Below, piece by piece: positions 33,859-47,485 of a stretch of DNA of 64,000 nucleotides. Position numbers and translations under genes: made by a program. The stretch lies in assembly GCA_017306415.1 (NCBI GenBank), contig JAFKIL010000007.1:113045-177044 (forward strand). The letters run 5' to 3'. Each line of letters opens with the position of its first letter. The first letter of the stretch is position 1. Source of the DNA: Microbacterium sp. GTDB taxonomy: Bacteria > Actinomycetota > Actinomycetes > Actinomycetales > Microbacteriaceae. Under the pieces are notes generated by a model. That model ran no database searches. It saw only the letters and a list, made by a program, of their open reading frames with translations, and had not been told where the DNA came from.

Positions 33859-33906
33859 CCGGGGCGGCGTTTGGCCTGCCGGCGCGCATGCCGGCCCAAG
33901 CCCCCG

Positions 33907-34064
33907 TCCGGCCCGGCCCGGCCCGGCCTGTCCGGCCCGGCTGTCACAGCTGAGCCCGGCCCGGCGCGGCCCGGCCCGTCCGGCCCGGCGCGGCCCGGCG
34001 CGGCCCGGCGCGGCCCGGCCCGTCACAGCTCAGCCCAGCTCAGCTCACCCCAGCCCGGCCCGCC
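33907..34064. repeat. GC-only tandem repeat tract
   Basis: About 160 bp built from GGCCC pentamers and CGGCCCGGCG decamers, with two interspersed copies of GTCACAGCT followed by AGCCC. It lies between the aminotransferase gene and the first palindromic repeat. No gene is supported here. Confidence 0.85.
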
Positions 34065-34066
34065 AC

Positions 34067-34142
34067 AAAACACGGACGGATGCCACGACACGCCGTCCCG
34101 GAGCCTGGCCGCTCGGAGTGTCGCGCTGGTGGTCCGTGTTTT
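34067..34142 (+). repeat. Palindromic intergenic repeat, copy 1
   Basis: 76 bp with perfect 11-bp ends (AAAACACGGAC and GTCCGTGTTTT) and an inner pair CGACAC/GTGTCG. It shares AACACGGA-C-GGATGC, CACGCCGT and TTTTCGAACG with three other copies at 35189, 44195 and 46631, all in the same orientation. It lies just beyond the 3' end of the DUF559 gene. Confidence 0.75.
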
Positions 34143-34208
34143 CGAACGTGACCGCGTCACCGAGCCGGTCGGGTGGGGCGCGGCGGCGGGTGGGTCGAGC
34201 CGTCGGGG

Positions 34209-35063
34209 TCAGCGAGCCGACTGAAGGTGCGCGCCGGCGCGGACCTTGGCGAGGATCGCATCCTCCACGAGGGGCCAGTCGTGGATGACCATCGCGTAGT
34301 CGAACCGCAGGGTCTCGAAGTCCCACGCGGCGGAGTTCGCATCCCGCACCAGATCCTTGTGCCGATGGGACGGCCCGTCGTGGTTCGGCTTGCCGTCTAT
34401 CTCAAGGAGCAGTCGATCCCCGATGAGGAAGTCCACGACGCCGGTGGCGAACACATGGACCTGGCACCGCACCGAGATGCCATGACGGTGGAGCCGGAGG
34501 CGCACCAATGACTCGAGTCCGCTGTCCGCGTCAGTGCGGGCGAAGTCGACCAACCACCGGATGGACACGGGGAGGCGTGGCCGCAGAATCTGCGTCTCCG
34601 CACTGCTGAGCAATCCCTGCCGCAGCGCCGACTCGAGTGCGGCGAAGAACGCTTCTTCGCCGCGGCACCACGCGACTTGGACCAGGACCAAAGGGATCGG
34701 AGGAAGTGTGCCGACCGTCACGTCGCCCCGATCCCAGTGGAGGTGGCATCGGCACCGGTCGTGCGCCCGCGCCGACCCGGCACGGCCCAGCCAGACGTGG
34801 AGCTCATCGTGCGGCAGGGTCCATAGCCCGTGGAGGGCCGCTGCCGTGGCGCACGCGGGGACGCCGCCGTGCGCTGCGGCGTCGAGCATGCGCGGATCGG
34901 TGGCCGGCAGGGCGAATATCCCCTGACGGGGACGCACCAGATCTCCTGTCTCGACCGCATGTCGCAGACCACGCGCCGACACGCCCTCCGCGCGCAGCGT
35001 GCGCGTGCGCGCGACACCGCCCGCCCGTCGGACGGCGGCTGCCACATCCGCACCTGTCTCCAC
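34209..35063 (-). CDS. DUF559 endonuclease-fold protein with AbiEi-like N-terminus
   Basis: 284 aa. The N-terminal part (about 1-75) resembles the winged-helix domain of AbiEi-type antitoxins (RRAGGVARTRTLRAEGVS, then RPRQGIFALP). The C-terminal part has the DUF559/Vsr-like nuclease fold: VVDFLIGDRLLLEIDGKPNH with Asp, Glu and Asp at restriction-endonuclease spacing, then TLRFDYAMVIHDWPLV. Such proteins are common in actinobacteria; their function is unknown and the toxin-antitoxin label is unproven. The GTG at 35063 places the start at the domain boundary; the frame is open to 35189, where it would run into repeat copy 2. The gene is bracketed by two same-orientation palindromic repeats. Confidence 0.75.
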   Translation of the reverse strand: METGADVAAAVRRAGGVARTRTLRAEGVSARGLRHAVETGDLVRPRQGIFALPATDPRMLDAAAHGGVPACATAAALHGLWTLPHDELHVWLGRAGSARAHDRCRCHLHWDRGDVTVGTLPPIPLVLVQVAWCRGEEAFFAALESALRQGLLSSAETQILRPRLPVSIRWLVDFARTDADSGLESLVRLRLHRHGISVRCQVHVFATGVVDFLIGDRLLLEIDGKPNHDGPSHRHKDLVRDANSAAWDFETLRFDYAMVIHDWPLVEDAILAKVRAGAHLQSAR

Positions 35064-35188
35064 TCTCCGAGCGTCGCGCGCGGCGAGCCGGAATTCGGCC
35101 CGCAGAACGCGGCCCGTGGATGAGGCTGCCCTCCCGTTCCGTGTGCAGGAACCCGTGCCCGCGGCATCCCGAGCTGGCGCATCCGTCA

Positions 35189-35266
35189 CGAAACACGGAC
35201 GGATGCGGCGACACGCCGTCCTCGAGCTCGGCCGCGCGGCGTGTCACTCGCGTCGTCCGCGTTTTC
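35189..35266 (+). repeat. Palindromic intergenic repeat, copy 2
   Basis: 78 bp with ends CGAAACACGGAC and GTCCGCGTTTTCG and a perfect 9-bp inner stem GACACGCCG/CGGCGTGTC. Same orientation as copy 1, on the 5' side of the DUF559 gene. The gap from 35064 to 35383 holds this repeat and a C-rich tract but no gene. Confidence 0.75.
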
Positions 35267-35383
35267 GCACCCGTACCCGCCCCGCACCCGCACCCGCTCG
35301 CACCCGGCCCCCGAACCTACCCGTCCCCGAACCGACCCCGCCCGACCCGCTATCGTGAACCGGAAAAACGCCAGGGGGGATCC

Positions 35384-41011: not shown

Positions 41012-41950
41012 TCAGACCTTCGGCTCGTGCGTCTCGATCGCGACGATGCCCGAGCCGGGGTTCGTCGCCGAGAGGTGCACGACGGAGAACGCGGCCACTT
41101 CGAGCGCGGACGCACTGCCGAGGTACGAGCCCCGCAGCGTGCCGGTCGCGAGGGCGATCTCGTTGAGGATGTCGGGCAGCACGGGACCGTGGCTGCACAG
41201 GACGACGGGCTTGCGGGCGCGCACGCGGCGGCCGATGACGTCGCGGACCTCGGCGGTGCCCTCTTCCCAGGCATCCTGGCTGATCTTCGCCGTGCGGTGG
41301 ATCTTGCGCCCGGTGGCGGCCGCCAGCGGTGCGACGGTGGTCACGCATCGCACGGCATCGCTCGTGACGATGCGGCGGACGCCGAACGACTGCAGCGGTC
41401 CGGCGATCGACGTCGCCTGCCGCGCCCCCCGGCTCGTCAGCGGGCGCATCGCATCCGGACCCGTCCAGTCCTCGCGCGGCACCGCCTTCGCGTGACGGAG
41501 GGCGATCAGCGGGAATGTCCGCAGCACGCCGTCGTCGACGATGCGGAGGAAGTTCTCCAGGATCTCGACGTCGACGGGGTAGCTGAGGCGCGCCAGGGCC
41601 TTCTTCGGGCTGAGCCACTCGATCGCGGCGATCTCCTTGTTCGGCACGAACGCGGAGGCGCGGATCGCCTCAGCCGTCGCCTCGGCGGACCAGTAGTGGA
41701 CGATCTTCTGACGCTTGCTGGGCAGCCGATACCGGGACACCCCGACCGGGACGCCGAGCGCGACGCGGATACCGGTCTCCTCGAAGATCTCGCGTGCCGC
41801 GGTCTCGGCGAGCATCTCACCGGGATCGACCTTGCCCTTGGGGAGGGTGACGTCGGCGTAGGCGGTGCGGTGGATGACGAGGACGGTGAGCTTGCCCTCG
41901 ACCAGGCGCCACACGACACCCCCCGCCGCGTAGACGGCGGTCTCGCTCAT
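41012..41950 (-). CDS. NUDIX hydrolase with histidine-phosphatase domain (MutT1-like)
   Basis: 312-aa two-domain protein. The N-terminal NUDIX box [20 protein letters not shown] plus TGI is complete (residues about 40-62). The C-terminal domain is of the histidine phosphatase type, with LRHAKA at its start and [10 protein letters not shown] late. The layout equals mycobacterial MutT1, which clears 8-oxo-dGTP and diadenosine polyphosphates. It overlaps the end of ppk by 4 bp, so the two are co-translated; a link to polyphosphate or nucleotide pools is likely. Confidence 0.9.
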
Positions 41951-44112
41951 CGGACCGCCCGTGCCCGTCGGCGGCGCTGGACGTTCGACATCGTGCGGTC
42001 TTGGAGATCGACCAGGGGCTTGCCGTTCTCGCCGACGCTGTGCCGGACCCACTCGCCCTCCGGGCCGAGATGCCACGAACTCGTCCCGTCGCTCATCGCG
42101 AGCGTGAACAGATCGTCCATCTCCTTCAGGTGGCCGGGCGCCACGACGCGCACGAGGACCTCGATCCGCCGATCGAGGTTGCGGTGCATCATGTCGGCGC
42201 TGCCGATGTAGACCTGCGGGTCGCCGTCGTTCGCGAACGAGAAGATGCGGGAGTGCTCCAGGTACCTGCCGAGGATGCTGCGCACCGTGATGTTCTCGCT
42301 CATTCCCGGCACGCCCGGCTTGAGGCTGCAGATCCCGCGCACCCAGATCTCGACGGGGACGCCGGCCTGACTCGCGCGGTAGAGCGCGTCGATGATCTGC
42401 TCGTCGACCATCGAGTTCACCTTGATGCGGATGCCGGAGGCTTTGCCGGCCTCCGCGTTGCGGCGCTCCTTGTCGATCAGGCGCAGGAGGCCCTTGCGGA
42501 GGTGGCGCGGCGCGACGAGGAGGCGCTTGAACTTCTTCTCGATCGCGTAGCCGCTCAGCTCGTTGAACAGCCGGATGAGGTCGCGACCGACCTGCTCGTC
42601 CGTCGTGAACAGCCCGAAGTCCTCGTAGATCCGGCTCGTCTTGGGGTTGTAGTTGCCCGTCCCGATGTGGGAGTAGCTGCGCAGCGTCCCCTCCTCCTCG
42701 CGGATCACCAGCGCGAGCTTGCAGTGGGTCTTGAGGCCGACGAGGCCGTAGACGACGTGGACGCCGGCCTTCTCGAGCTTGCGGGCCCACACGATGTTGG
42801 CCGCCTCGTCGAAGCGGGCCTTCACCTCGACGAGGGCGAGCACCTGCTTGCCGGCCTCCGCGGCGTCGATGAGCGCCTGCACGATGGGGCTGTCGCCCGA
42901 GGTGCGGTACAGCGTCTGCTTGATGGCGAGCACGTGCGGGTCCTTGGCGGCCTGCTCCAGGAACGCCTGCACGCTCGTCGTGAACGACTCGTACGGGTGA
43001 TGCACCAGGACATCCGCCATCCGGATCGCCGCGAAGATGTCGGGGCGTTCGTTGCTGTCGCCCGGCTGGAAGGCCAGCGCCGTGATCGGGACGTGCGGCG
43101 GATAGCGCAGATCGGGGCGCGCGATCCGTCCCAGATCGAAAAGCCCGCGGAGGTCGAGGGCGCCCGGCAGCCGGTAGACCTGCTGCTCGCTGATGTCGAG
43201 CTCGTCGATCAGCAGATCGAGCGTGAGGTCGTCCATGTCGTCGGTGACCTCGAGCCGGATCGGCGGGCCGAACCGCCGGCGCAGCAGCTCCGCCTCGAGG
43301 GCCTGGATGAGATTCTCGGTCTCGTCCTCCTCGATCTCGACGTCCTCGTTGCGCGTGAGGCGGAACGTGTGGTGGTCGAGGATCTCCATCCCTGGGAAGA
43401 GGTCCGCGAGGTTGTTGGCGATGAGGTCTTCGAGCGGCAGGAACCGGATGCGCTCGCCCTCCTCGCCGACGCGCACGAACCGGGGGAGCATCGGAGGCAC
43501 CTTGAGGCGTGCGAACTCCTGGCGCCCCGTGCGGGCGTTCCGGATGCGGATCGCGAGGTTGAGCGACAGGCCCGAGATGTACGGGAACGGATGCGCCGGG
43601 TCGACCGCGAGCGGCATCAGCACGGGGAACACCTGCGCCTGGAAGTAGCGGTAGAGGTCGTCCTTCTCGTCGTCGCCCAGGTCGCCCCACGAGAGGAAGT
43701 CGATGCCGGCGTCGGCGAGGGCCGGCTTGACCTGCGACGTCCAGGCGTCCGCGTGCCTGAGCTGCAGCCGATGCGCTTCGGCCGAGATGTCGGCGAGCAC
43801 GTCCTGTGGCGTGCGGCCGACGTTGGTCGGCACCGCGAGTCCCGTCACGATGCGGCGGCGCAGGCCCGCGACGCGCACCATGAAGAACTCGTCGAGGTTG
43901 CTGCCGAAGATCGCGAGGAAGTTCGCCCGTTCGAGCACCGGCATCGCCGGATCCTCGGCGAGCTCGAGCACACGCTGGTTGAAGGCCAGCCAGCTCAGCT
44001 CGCGATCCAGGTAGCGGCCGTCGGGGAGCTCCGAGTCGAAGACCTCGGCGAGGTCGAAGTCGTCGTCCTCCCCGTCGTCGAGTCCGGTGTCGAGGACCTC
44101 GTGTCCGATCAT
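41947..44112 (-). CDS. ppk: Polyphosphate kinase 1
   Basis: 721-aa PPK1, which reversibly makes polyphosphate from ATP. The N domain starts after an acidic leader with [20 protein letters not shown]. The autophosphorylated His is in [14 protein letters not shown], with the second conserved His in [12 protein letters not shown], and [15 protein letters not shown] near the end. Length is normal. The ATG at 44112 precedes the acidic leader; the frame continues upstream without match. It is the first gene of ppk-NUDIX and has a likely PHO box about 25-40 bp upstream. Confidence 0.95.
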
Positions 44113-44164: not shown

Positions 44165-44307
44165 GGCGCGCTGCGCCGCCCATGCCACCGCATGGTTCGG
44201 TAACACGGATCGGATGCCGCGGCACGCCGTGGCGTGCCGCGGCCGCGGCACGCCGTGGCCGCGGCATCCGAACCGGCGCGTCGCCGTCCCGGTCCGCGTT
44301 TTCGAAC
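44165..44307 (+). repeat. Palindromic intergenic repeat, copy 3 (extended)
   Basis: The core at 44195-44307 (113 bp) has ends GTTCGGTAACACGGATC and GGTCCGCGTTTTCGAAC. A 16-bp block GGCGCGCTGCGCCGCC precedes it at 44165-44180, identical in copy 4. Relative to copy 4 the core contains a 26-bp internal duplication of the GC palindrome. It lies between ppk and the TPR gene. Confidence 0.8.
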
Positions 44308-44309
44308 GG

Positions 44310-45371
44310 TCAGCCGGCCGGGGACGGTGCGCCTTGCTTCGCCCGACGCGTGTCGGCGCCGAGCAGCAACGACGGAACTATCACCGACACGAGCATTCCG
44401 GCCTGCCACACGCCGACGGGCCGATCCGCGGGGACGGCGGCGAGTGCGAGACCCGTCGGCAACGCCGCGAGCGCGACGATCGCGGCCAGGGCGACCGGTG
44501 GGTGAGGGCGGCCGTGGCCGAAGAGATACCGCAGCACAGGCCGCCCGGCACGCACGAGGAACAGGGCGACCATGACGAGGACCACGCACAGGCCGGCGGC
44601 GGCGGTCTGCCACAGCGGGCCGGCGACGGACGCGCCCGTCGTCTTCGAGCTGAGCGCCATCAACGCCATCAGCGCGAAGATGCCGCCGGACACCAACGCG
44701 AGATTCGATATCAGTGTCTTGACGCACGTGGCGATGTTGATCCGAGCGAGCTCGTAGAGGGGATCCCGGCGGAGGATGTCGCCGAACACCCGCACGGCGG
44801 CGGCGGGACGTCGTCGATGCAGCATCACGACCGCGAGATTGTTGGCCGCATTGGCGTTGAGCGGGTCGATCGCGAGCGCGGTGCGGAACGCGGACGTCGC
44901 GTCGACGAATTCGCCGCGGAGGCGCCACACCTCTCCGAGGAGGATGTGGGAGCTCGCCGAACTCGGGTCGAGCGTGACCAGTTCCTGTGCGGAGCGAAGC
45001 GCTCTGTCTCCGGGCTTTGCTCCAGCAATGCCGACCCGCGCCACCGCGGCATGGGCGTACCAGTTGTCCGGGTGCACACGGACGGCTTCGTCCGCCATTG
45101 CGATCGCGGTGCTCCGGTCCTGCCGTCCGATCGCGGCCGTCACTCCGACGATGAGACCACCCAGGTCCGCCGGGTCCGCGGCAAGCACCCGATAGGCGAT
45201 CCGCTGCGCCTCGTGGTAGCGGTGGAGCGCGTTGAGCGCATCACCGGCCACGATCAGCGCCTCGCGGTCCTCCGGGTTGCTCGCGAGAAAGGCGGCGACC
45301 GTATTCAGGGCCTCGTCGGGACGGCCGGCTGCTGCAAATGCCTTCGCCTGGTCGACGACCCGAGCACTCAC
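44310..45371 (-). CDS. TPR membrane protein, partner of the AAA+ ATPase
   Basis: 353 aa. Residues about 1-215 are helical TPR-like repeats ([80 protein letters not shown]). Four hydrophobic segments occupy about 228-340, with a short basic tail. It therefore looks like a cytoplasmic TPR scaffold anchored in the membrane. The GTG start overlaps the stop of the AAA+ gene by 4 bp (GTGA), so the two products are made together and probably interact. I do not recognise a characterised homologue. The gene stops 3 bp from palindromic repeat copy 3. Confidence 0.7.
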
Positions 45372-46585
45372 AGCCGCTTCGACTTCTTCAGGAAGGCCTT
45401 CAGATCGGGGTAGGCGCCCTCGTCGCCGAACGTGACGATGGTCCGTGCGGCATCCAGCCACGGTCCTGTCGACGGCTGGACCTCTGTGAGGGCGTGATCG
45501 AGGTCGGGCATCGCGATCATGCGTGCCTCGCCGTTCGCGATACTGTCCATCAGAGCGTGCTCGGCCGCCAGCTCGCACACGTAGGCGATGTCCGCACCGG
45601 AGAAGCCCCCCGTCGCCTTGGCGAGCCGGTTCAGATCGATCCCTTCGACGGGCCGCTGCGAGAGGTGGTGGCGGAAGATCGCCGCTCGCGCGTCCGTGTC
45701 GGGCGGTGCGACGAGGACCATCCTGTCCAGCCGCCCGGGACGGCGCAGGGCCGGATCCACCTCCCATGGCTGGTTCGAGGCGGCGAGGACGAACACCCCC
45801 TCGTTGGACCCGTCGACTCCATCCATCTCGGTGAGGAGCTGGTTCACCACGTTGCGCAGAGTCGCGGAACCGCGCAACGACGAACGCTTCTGCCCCAGCG
45901 TGTCGACCTCGTCGAAGAAGAGCACACAGGGCGCGTCGCGGCGCGCGATCTGGAACAGCTCGTGGACGTTGTGCTCGCTCACCCCGACGTAAGGATCGAG
46001 GATGTCGGTGATCGAGGCGGAGAGGAATCCCGCGCCGAGCTCACCGGCGAGGGCGCGGGCAATATAGGTCTTCCCGCATCCCGGCGGCCCGTAAAGCAGC
46101 AGGCCGCCTCGCAGCGACTTGCCATAGAGATCGCGCAGCCGTGGATTGCGCATCGGCGCGAGGAAGGCCGCATCAAGGCGGCGCTTGACCTCCGTCATGC
46201 CGCCCACGTCATCGAGCCGCACCCCGGGGCGTTCCGCGACGAACGCATCGCCCCCAGTCTCCGCCCGTCGCTCCTCGAAGCGGGGCTGAACGACGCCGCG
46301 GACCTCCGCCTCGGCAGCGGACCAGTCGTACTCGATGGGGCGCTCGGACGGCGAGGGCTCGGGAGGTGAGGCGGCGGACGGCGACGCGTTGAGCAGCTCG
46401 AGAAGCAGTGCTCGCGCGTCGGCTCTCGATGGCGCCCCCGCGACGACCTCGGACACGGTCGCAATCGCCTCGTCGTGTCGGCCAGCGCTTTCCGCCAGGG
46501 CCCGCGCGTAGTGGAGCTTGAGCTCCAGGTCCCCAGGGGCGGCATCGACCGCGCGCTTCAGCGCACTCAGTACAGCGTCATCCAC
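45368..46585 (-). CDS. AAA+ ATPase with N-terminal TPR-like region
   Basis: 405 aa. Residues about 1-70 are helical and TPR-like (LELKLHYARALAESAGRHDE), followed by a Pro/Ser linker. The classical AAA+ module has LDDVGGMTEVKRRLDAAF, Walker A YGPPGCGKTY, pore-loop region LDPYVGVSEH, Walker B VLFFDEVDTLG, sensor 1 LAASNQP and arginine finger RRPGRLDRM. This matches the CDC48/Vps4/FtsH branch, but it lacks membrane helices and a protease. It probably remodels or extracts proteins together with the coupled TPR membrane protein; the substrate is unknown. The pair is bracketed by palindromic repeat copies 3 and 4. Confidence 0.85.
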   Translation of the reverse strand: MDDAVLSALKRAVDAAPGDLELKLHYARALAESAGRHDEAIATVSEVVAGAPSRADARALLLELLNASPSAASPPEPSPSERPIEYDWSAAEAEVRGVVQPRFEERRAETGGDAFVAERPGVRLDDVGGMTEVKRRLDAAFLAPMRNPRLRDLYGKSLRGGLLLYGPPGCGKTYIARALAGELGAGFLSASITDILDPYVGVSEHNVHELFQIARRDAPCVLFFDEVDTLGQKRSSLRGSATLRNVVNQLLTEMDGVDGSNEGVFVLAASNQPWEVDPALRRPGRLDRMVLVAPPDTDARAAIFRHHLSQRPVEGIDLNRLAKATGGFSGADIAYVCELAAEHALMDSIANGEARMIAMPDLDHALTEVQPSTGPWLDAARTIVTFGDEGAYPDLKAFLKKSKRL

Positions 46586-46597
46586 GGCTACACATTA

Positions 46598-46717
46598 GGC
46601 GCGCTGCGCCGCCGCGCGCGCCGCCGCGTGGTTCGAAAACACGGATCGGATGCCGCGGCACGCCGTGGCCGCGGCATCCGAACCGGCGCGTCGCCGTCCC
46701 GGTCCGCATTTTCGAAC
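46598..46717 (+). repeat. Palindromic intergenic repeat, copy 4 (extended)
   Basis: The core at 46631-46717 (87 bp) has ends GTTCGAAAACACGGATC and GGTCCGCATTTTCGAAC. The same 16-bp block as before copy 3 lies at 46598-46613. Same orientation as the other copies; it lies between the AAA+ gene start and the GlnR-type gene end. Confidence 0.8.
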
Positions 46718-46764
46718 GGACACCCGGACACCCGGACACCCGGACACCCGGACACCCGACACCC
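46718..46764. repeat. GGACACCC octamer tandem repeat
   Basis: Five perfect GGACACCC units and a sixth lacking one G, starting exactly at the end of palindromic repeat copy 4. It is non-coding and lies 3' of the GlnR-type gene. Confidence 0.9.
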
Positions 46765-46789
46765 GGGCGCCGCGGCTTCGCCGGCGCCC
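46765..46789 (-). terminator. Hairpin after the GlnR-type gene
   Basis: GGGCGCCG and CGGCGCCC form an 8-bp stem 7 bp beyond the stop codon on the minus strand. Confidence 0.5.
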
Positions 46790-46795
46790 GCGGCG

Positions 46796-47485
46796 TCAGC
46801 GCGTGGTGGGCGCGGGCTCCTGGTCGTCCTCGTAGACGTTGAACCGGTAGCCGACGTTGCGCACCGTGCCGATGAGCTGCTCGAGGTCGCCCAGCTTCGC
46901 GCGCAGCCGCCGCACATGGACGTCGACCGTGCGCGTTCCGCCGAAGTAGTCGTAGCCCCACACCTCGCTGAGCAGCTGCTCGCGGGTGAAGACGCGGGAC
47001 GGATGCGTCGCGAAGAAATGCAGCAGCTGGAACTCCTTGTACGTCAGATCCAGCGGCTTGCCGTGCACCTTGGCCGAGTAGGAGGACTCGTCGATCGTGA
47101 TGCCCGAGGTCTGCACGCGCGTGGAGATCTGGTCCTTGCTCATGCGCCCCACCGCGAGGCGGATGCGCGCGTCGACCTCCGCGGGGCCGGCAGTGACGAG
47201 GATGACGTCGTCGACACCCCAGTCCGGGGACACGGCGGTGAGGCCGCCCTCGGTGACGACGAGCATGAGCGGCGCGTCGAGCCCGGTGGTGTTCAGGATC
47301 TTGCACAGCGACTTCGCGCCCACGAGATCGATGCGCGCGTCCAGGAAGATGACGTCGGCGCTCGGTGCGTTCACGAGCTGCGCCGGTTCTGCCGGGATCT
47401 GGCGCACGCGATGGCTCAGCAGCTCGAGCGACGGCAGGACGGGGCCGCCTCCGCTCGCGGAGCTGAGTACCAGAAGCTGTGCCAA
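46796..47485 (-). CDS. glnR: GlnR-type orphan response regulator
   Basis: 229 aa. The N-terminal receiver-like domain (about 1-115) has [40 protein letters not shown] and [12 protein letters not shown], the pattern of actinobacterial GlnR, whose receiver is atypical. The OmpR-type winged helix follows with [20 protein letters not shown] and [17 protein letters not shown]. In actinomycetes GlnR controls nitrogen assimilation genes; no kinase lies next to it, as expected. The start is TTG at 47485, preceded by GGGGAGGA. Assignment to GlnR rather than another orphan OmpR-type regulator is likely, not certain. Confidence 0.78.

Follow-up and report, generated by a model that had tools for sequence, protein, structure and literature searches.

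Two coupled genes in a Microbacterium genome, encoding an AAA+ ATPase and a tetratricopeptide repeat (TPR) protein, lie between two direct copies of a palindromic repeat, and the locus raises the question of what this repeat belongs to: the gene pair that it encloses here, or something else in the genome. The genome (labelled G000; G and L numbers denote genomes and loci, respectively) comprises 3.76 Mb in 13 contigs, and the locus lies in a 64-kb stretch of it, referred to as the window. The repeat, an 87-bp interrupted palindrome named E here, has four copies in the window (E1 to E4), and E1 and E2 stand on either side of another gene, named N here, which encodes an AbiEi_4 domain together with a DUF559 nuclease domain. 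Our answer is that E is probably the cognate dispersed repeat of N, in a partnership that resembles that of REPINs and RAYTs and is built on an unrelated enzyme. As the repeat goes primarily with the nuclease gene, the likeliest role of the AAA+/TPR pair is that of a passenger.

The palindrome and its nuclease gene

The features of the window on which this reading is based are as follows, with bit scores from R1, a covariance model built from the G000 copies of E.

34062..34147, + strand: E1, beside the nuclease gene (R1 70.2 bits; E1/E2 are fourth among 702 pair comparisons)
34209..35063, - strand: N, 284 amino acids, AbiEi_4 winged helix (Pfam 6.8e-8) and DUF559 nuclease domain (Vsr-like, PD-(D/E)XK-type; Pfam 1.1e-4)
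35185..35270, + strand: E2, on the other side of the nuclease gene (R1 70.7 bits)
44195..44307, + strand: E3, with 26 extra internal bases (R1 54.8 bits; aligned to E4)
46631..46717, + strand: E4 (R1 73.0 bits)

E is a dispersed family with a shared architecture. Its outer-arm motif occurs at six sites in the window, compared with 0.45 expected and with none of 100 shuffled sequences as high, and in the whole genome the 12-bp arm, allowing at most one mismatch, gives 36 and 37 matches against 2 and 1 for the reversed control, with nine inverted arm pairs at exactly 69 bp. Four blocks are seen in 17 aligned copies, the outer GTTCGAAAACRCGGAY with its inverse and the inner CGACRCGCCG with its inverse, and the spacers between them are free. 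At least 27 full copies were found with R1 in the window and the stretches fetched from G000, a number that may be lower than the genome's total. According to a simple gene caller every one of the 27 is intergenic, 14 between tandem, eight between convergent and five between divergent genes; the arms are spread over several contigs, compared with the one-site array expected of integron cassettes (attC). CGTC or GACG stands at an end of 8 of the 27 copies, a count that has no chance control.

N is a recurrent neighbour of this palindrome. Among 16 E regions fetched from other genomes, five have N between copies of E (G178, G150, G213, G062 and G326); these E-bracketed relatives are 50-60% identical to N and also match REase_MTES_1575, under its cut-off. 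D, E, G, H and R residues are invariant in the C-terminal domain of the family. Those relatives of the nuclease gene that have a name come mostly from Microbacterium, in agreement with the genus given for the window. A profile of six N proteins, run against 99 genomes, gave 90 hits of at least 242 bits in 60 genomes, the next hit scoring 227 and the rest at most 177 bits; some match to the nuclease profile is present in 95 of the 99 genus genomes. From the 90 hits, 60 loci were taken, 30 as the best per genome (L235-L264) and 30 picked by hand (L265-L294), the latter with a preference for E-rich genomes and for sites close to glnR. An R1 match lies within 700 bp of N on both sides in 38 of the 60 loci and on one side in four; the both-sided cases number 12 of the unpicked 30, to which all four one-sided cases also belong, and 26 of the hand-picked 30, the remaining four of which have a match on neither side. 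E is found downstream as well as upstream of N. Independently of R1, a direct repeat of at least 50 bits flanks N in 33 of the 60 loci. In a second set, which overlaps the first in part, as some contigs agree in length (77 of 80 loci used; L372, L389 and L403 left out for short flanks), such repeats flank 33 of 77 N genes and 8 of 300 control genes, and the eight are themselves five N genes, two genes beside an N gene and one glyoxalase gene (G087). Several copies of N contain an in-frame TGA (L238, L254, L273, L280 and others), and some may be pseudogenes.

The association also holds between genomes. R1 matches were counted on both strands in the 99 genomes, with highest values of at least 45, and genomes with at least ten matches are termed E-rich. 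All 29 E-rich genomes contain N and none of the 39 N-less genomes is E-rich (Fisher 1.4e-8, which ignores phylogeny). E itself is patchy, any R1 match being found in 57 of the 99 genomes.

In addition, palindrome and enzyme diverge together. The inner block of E is nearly constant and the outer word differs between lineages, and in the five genomes that were compared by eye (G000, G021, G074, G062 and G087) the dispersed copies have the same outer word as those flanking N. In 24 elements from 23 genomes, 76 cells of the outer arms carry a two-sided change, compared with 27 after shuffling, and outer-arm covariation is 0.376 against 0.128, a value reached in 0 of 500 shuffles; the inner nine pairs show no two-sided change. 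Among the copies within G000 there is no covariation (0.075 vs 0.071), on which ground E was rejected as an RNA structure. Covariation between lineages, together with none within the genome, fits a protein that reads both arms and not selection for a hairpin. Over 28 loci, the distance between outer words correlates with that between N residues 20-75 when the nuclease domain is controlled for (partial Mantel 0.44, p 0.0002), and the reverse test, for the nuclease domain, gives 0.16 (p 0.045). The outer word of E tracks the amino-terminal and middle parts of N.

The inheritance of N looks largely vertical. In 27 genomes the gene shares a contig with glnR at a distance of 8-15 kb, the ratio of nonsynonymous to synonymous substitution (dN/dS) is 0.09 in one pair of species and 0.13 in another, and there are two weak plasmid matches and one weak phage match. 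A plasmid origin was rejected on the same weak matches and on the lack of any DNA match to the E3 stretch.

Several observations weigh against a partnership of E and N. No R1 match is present on either side of N in 18 of the 60 loci, and this count is 14 of 30 in the unpicked half. The association between genomes weakens with the threshold: at five or more R1 matches it is 34 of 60 N-positive against 6 of 39 N-less genomes, and at one or more it is 41 of 60 against 16 of 39 (p 0.012), the profile being weak at this level. Low R1 counts are in part noise, because hits of 20-28 bits fall inside the ppk coding sequence. By R1, 31 of the 60 N-positive genomes are not E-rich; the palindromes there may differ. 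A two-sided change is seen in 13 of 15 outer pairs, a figure that 21 of 500 shuffles reach (mean 10.4), and the outer word is followed more closely by residues 76-170 of N than by its winged helix (plain 0.68 vs 0.58, partial 0.47 vs 0.21). The nuclease fold of N is assigned from Pfam and from a single weak sequence match in the PDB (3hrl, 7.4e-5). Finally, neither a target-site duplication nor a new insertion of E was seen, and the genomes fetched include no close pair with and without E at one site for that comparison.

Signs of turnover in E-bracketed DNA

Several observations point to turnover of the E copies and of the DNA between them. The four best of the 702 comparisons between E copies are all neighbours in direct orientation, namely E3/E4 around the AAA+/TPR pair, E1/E2 around N and two tandem pairs with a spacing of about 200 bp; a pair 1.5 kb apart in L189 was not taken as a clear sister pair, being tenth in similarity. 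Tandem arrays that include flanking DNA also occur in G021 and G074. In G178, N stands between two Es; the sister species G177 carries a single E at the corresponding junction and lacks N, and the flanks are 98.6-99.4% identical. In G000, N adjoins an aminodeoxychorismate-lyase-like gene (Aminotran_4) and LtrA; Aminotran_4 also adjoins N in G178, and the gene sizes match in G150. Because G150 and G000 share this type of neighbour, it is simpler to suppose that G177 lost N when its direct Es recombined. A different route is seen in G324 (L228, 3564-4426), where N has decayed to two fragments and the Es are still in place.

Other genes are also found between copies of E. Two similar Es (82% over 89 bp) surround a glyoxalase-family gene in L223 (G087:C5, 5868-6974), a second possible passenger. 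Similar Es about 6 kb apart surround a gene cluster with a LacI-type regulator in L221 (G361:C22, 5280-11806), and in G148 (L222) Es stand at both ends of a cluster similar to that of L221. In G120 and G074 (L226 and L232), operons flanked by E pairs were discarded as cassettes, as by eye they look like shared synteny.

In the proposed model, a dimer of N would bind the two inverted half-sites of E, each consisting of the lineage-specific outer word and the inner CGACACGCCG core, and would cut or nick there. Repair after the cut could copy, delete or duplicate E and the DNA between Es, and N would in this manner drive the spread of its repeat. N itself would remain largely vertical, bracketed by two direct Es, as copies of E spread in intergenic DNA. 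Adjacent sister Es would arise by duplication of E with some of its flank, and segments between direct Es would be lost, and perhaps gained, via recombination between them.

Of the alternatives, the one that survives best, although we consider it unlikely, is that E is an operator, to which the AbiEi-type winged helix of N binds so as to regulate N itself and a regulon, nothing being moved. A precedent exists in an AbiEi antitoxin that, in the excerpted text of the source (PMC7319586), represses the operon encoding it and binds to inverted repeats, and an operator would suit both the conservation of the E blocks as sequence, with no covariation within the genome, and the intergenic position of 27 of 27 copies. 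However, N has E downstream as well as upstream, and 8 of the 27 copies lie between convergent genes. In addition, the tandem arrays with their flanks, the lack of any E at the glnR-ppk junction of all 60 relatives examined (see below) and the difference between E-N-E and a single E in the sister genomes all speak for turnover.

The AAA+/TPR pair between glnR and ppk

If E goes with N, the pair between E3 and E4 requires an account of its own. In addition to E3 and E4 themselves, this part of the window contains:

41947..44112, - strand: ppk (a label taken from the preliminary description of the window; 76-86% identical orthologues stand beside glnR in 60 of 60 relatives)
44165..44194, + strand: tail of E3, starting with a 16-bp lead block and duplicated together with the element (E3/E4 alignment)
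44310..45371, - strand: TPR protein gene, with four to five hydrophobic segments near the C-terminus (Pfam TPR_16 2.5e-16; hydropathy)
45368..46585, - strand: AAA+ ATPase gene, with an N-terminal TPR and a CDC48/VCP-like AAA domain (Pfam AAA 1.1e-39; best PDB sequence matches CDC48/VCP)
46598..46630, + strand: tail of E4, starting with the lead block (E3/E4 alignment)
46796..47485, - strand: glnR-type regulator gene (Pfam GlnR_1st 3.8e-43, plus Trans_reg_C)

The two genes overlap by 4 bp on the same strand. E3 and E4 are direct repeats (a repeat search gives 96% across 76 nt and 88% across 60 nt), and the lead block, GGCGCGCTGCGCCGCC, starts at about 44165 and at 46598. The duplicated unit (44165-44317 and 46598-46727) comprises E and its immediate flanks, a 30-33-bp tail at one end and 10 bp at the opposite end, and 118 of 127 aligned bases are identical between its two versions. 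Almost no spare DNA remains between the pair and these sister repeats; direct reading bears out the preliminary description in that the pair fills the space between the third and fourth copies, which have the same orientation and share the lead block.

The operon is an insertion between the core genes glnR and ppk. A glnR match was present in 96 relatives; the DNA downstream of the gene was fetched from 60 of these, and in all 60 ppk comes next, after a gap of about 35-153 bp. Between the two genes there is no AAA+ or TPR match in any of the 60, nor does the gap contain E, the 16 R1 rows recorded at these loci (20-28 bits) falling in the ppk coding sequence. The flanking genes had been described as core-like and the pair as inserted between them, and this stands: far from always lying between ppk and glnR, it is found there in 0 of 60 relatives.

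The pair is also rare, the AAA+ gene being present in 26 of 366 genus genomes, G000 included. Of the 25 other AAA+ loci, 20 were searched for E with R1 as 14-kb stretches, and none has a strong E, the best match scoring 23.6 bits and lying about 6 kb away from the AAA+ gene; R1 may miss the palindromes of other lineages. In these 20 loci the same pair was thus not seen between repeats, and the idea of the pair as a standing passenger of E was dropped on the same evidence. In all 20, a same-strand gene follows immediately after the AAA+ gene, and nine of the loci show similarity to the TPR protein. The pair is therefore an accessory unit inserted here and not one that generally travels with E; because it is rare and the 20 other loci have no strong E, E is not its private recombination site.

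This bears directly on the proposal made in the preliminary description, that the pair forms a self-contained mobile cassette with the palindrome as its own recombination site, which we regard as quite unlikely. The sister direct repeats at both ends, with hardly any DNA to spare, and the absence of the pair from this site in 60 of 60 relatives are what such a cassette would leave. On the other side, apart from the AAA+ loci that lack a strong E, most E copies in G000 have no such pair beside them and neither protein matches a recombinase family in a Pfam scan. The part of the proposal that concerns insertion is retained, and the part that gives the palindrome to the pair is not. The accompanying prediction, that recombination between the copies would excise the enclosed DNA and leave one repeat, agrees with a case in the E family, that of G178 and G177, and has no counterpart at glnR-ppk: the junction of E3 and ppk is carried by no other genome among the 366 of the genus that were searched, and no single-repeat relative was found in them. 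With E as the repeat of N, the AAA+/TPR operon would be a passenger that arrived between two sister Es at the glnR-ppk junction, possibly carried in on an E-bracketed piece of DNA that recombined with the site, or else inserted into Es already duplicated in tandem.

Codon usage was not used as a sign of recent transfer of the pair (GC content at third positions 0.83-0.84, compared with 0.93-0.95 in glnR and ppk), because 12 of the 48 window genes longer than 600 bp, the pair and N included, score below 0.26 per codon. As to function, the AAA domain resembles IetA of the anti-phage system IetAS (PADLOC 1.1e-34), whereas the AAA+ protein scores 122.7 bits against an NCBIfam IetA/IteA cut-off of 510 and its partner here is a TPR protein with hydrophobic segments.

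Paralogous nucleases and known repeat systems

Nucleases related to N are accompanied by repeats of their own. Ten paralogous loci were picked by hand among the lower-scoring profile hits listed, and no E lies within 700 bp of any of them; eight of the ten have flanking direct repeats of at least 50 bits, of sequences other than E, with self-complementarity scores of 33-99, for which there is no score control. In G000, the AbiEi-DUF559 paralogue C7:164494 (L295, G000:C7:163494-166321) has its own dispersed 62-bp palindrome, the arm of which gives 50 hits compared with 12 for the reversed control. With the arms offset by exactly 48 bp there are 13 inverted pairs, of which two flank the gene of the paralogue, and 10 of 10 inspected copies are intergenic. 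Repeats with ACAGGTCAACC-type words, which belong to another repeat family, flank two further paralogues (L299 and L303).

These paralogues speak against a further alternative, in which E is an ordinary miniature inverted-repeat transposable element (MITE) of an insertion sequence with its transposase elsewhere, and N merely sits in a hotspot. The inverted ends, nearly fixed size, dispersed intergenic copies and patchy distribution of E are all typical of this, yet its copies share four blocks and differ in between, N is a recurrent neighbour in separate lineages with separate outer words, and the related nucleases have other flanking repeats and, in G000, another dispersed palindrome. No transposase family was found among the scanned neighbours of E, which are only part of them, no genome-wide transposase search having been made. 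On balance, we think a MITE very unlikely. That E copies are bidirectional terminators or hairpin RNAs flanking operons is the least credible option of all, since, despite their hairpins (DNA-fold z -2.9, -1.2, -4.6 and -5.3 for E1 to E4) and the A/T runs at their ends, 5 of the 27 copies lie between divergent genes, there is no covariation within the genome, no Rfam family reaches its cut-off (best 25.3 bits vs 67) and the link with N is left unexplained.

A partnership of E and N has its closest parallel in REPIN/RAYT systems. As far as the consulted portions of PMC3116915 and PMC8266576 describe them, REPINs are extragenic inverted doublets of a short conserved arm; copies stand beside the cognate enzyme gene and form tandem clusters together with their flanks, and each of the distinct enzymes, encoded by a single-copy gene, has its own repeat and co-evolves with it. 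Compared with this description, E matches in its inverted doublets at fixed spacing with 27 of 27 copies intergenic, in flanking N (on both sides in 38 of 60 loci), in its tandem clusters with flanks (G021, G074 and G000), and in the existence of distinct single-copy enzymes each co-evolving with its own repeat. It differs in the enzyme, which is an AbiEi winged helix with a DUF559/Vsr-like nuclease and not an HUH Y1 transposase, in the GTAG-type tag beside the palindrome, which is nearly absent (one copy of the 27, taken with 10-bp flanks, has GTAG or CTAC), and in having two conserved blocks in each half-site. A RAYT (Y1_Tnp, PF01797) was found in 0 of 24 genomes and in 5 of 14 control genomes. 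E is therefore not a REPIN proper: with the HUH transposase absent from these 24 genomes, E and N work like a REPIN/RAYT system without being a member of it.

N can likewise be set beside the families to which its two domains point. It shares with DUF559, REase_MTES_1575 and other Vsr-like nucleases its family match and the invariant C-terminal residues; what sets it apart is its probable link to a cognate repeat family, which none of the DUF559 titles or abstract openings listed describes. With AbiE toxin-antitoxin systems it shares the AbiEi_4 winged-helix domain; unlike them, it is fused to a nuclease domain and adjoins Aminotran_4 and LtrA genes, with no AbiEii nucleotidyltransferase toxin. 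In the titles and abstract openings of the literature searched, which mostly excludes subscription journals, no DUF559/AbiEi nuclease is described as having a repeat family of its own.

Beyond this locus, it is possible, although we would not call it the likelier outcome, that a new class of selfish or domesticated DNA exists in Actinobacteria, in which AbiEi-Vsr-like nucleases each have private palindromes that are read by a lineage-specific outer word and a family core and are spread or recombined through cleavage-induced repair. E-N-E units would then lose and gain genes, and the palindromes would serve as docking sites for accessory genes at core junctions. In the literature found, as far as its consulted parts go, the inherited enzyme to which a repeat population is tied is an HUH transposase. 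If an unrelated nuclease plays this part independently, the enzyme-tied way of life of repeats would have evolved more than once. Such a system would also give a role to a common, uncharacterised gene family and help to explain the intergenic repeats and gene insertions in these genomes.

Two sets of short tandem repeats stand next to copies of E in the window. GC-rich repeats of the CCCGGCCCGG type lie at 33900-34040, just outside E1, and a tandem 10-bp repeat of the ACACCCGGAC type occupies 46720-46765, between E4 and glnR.

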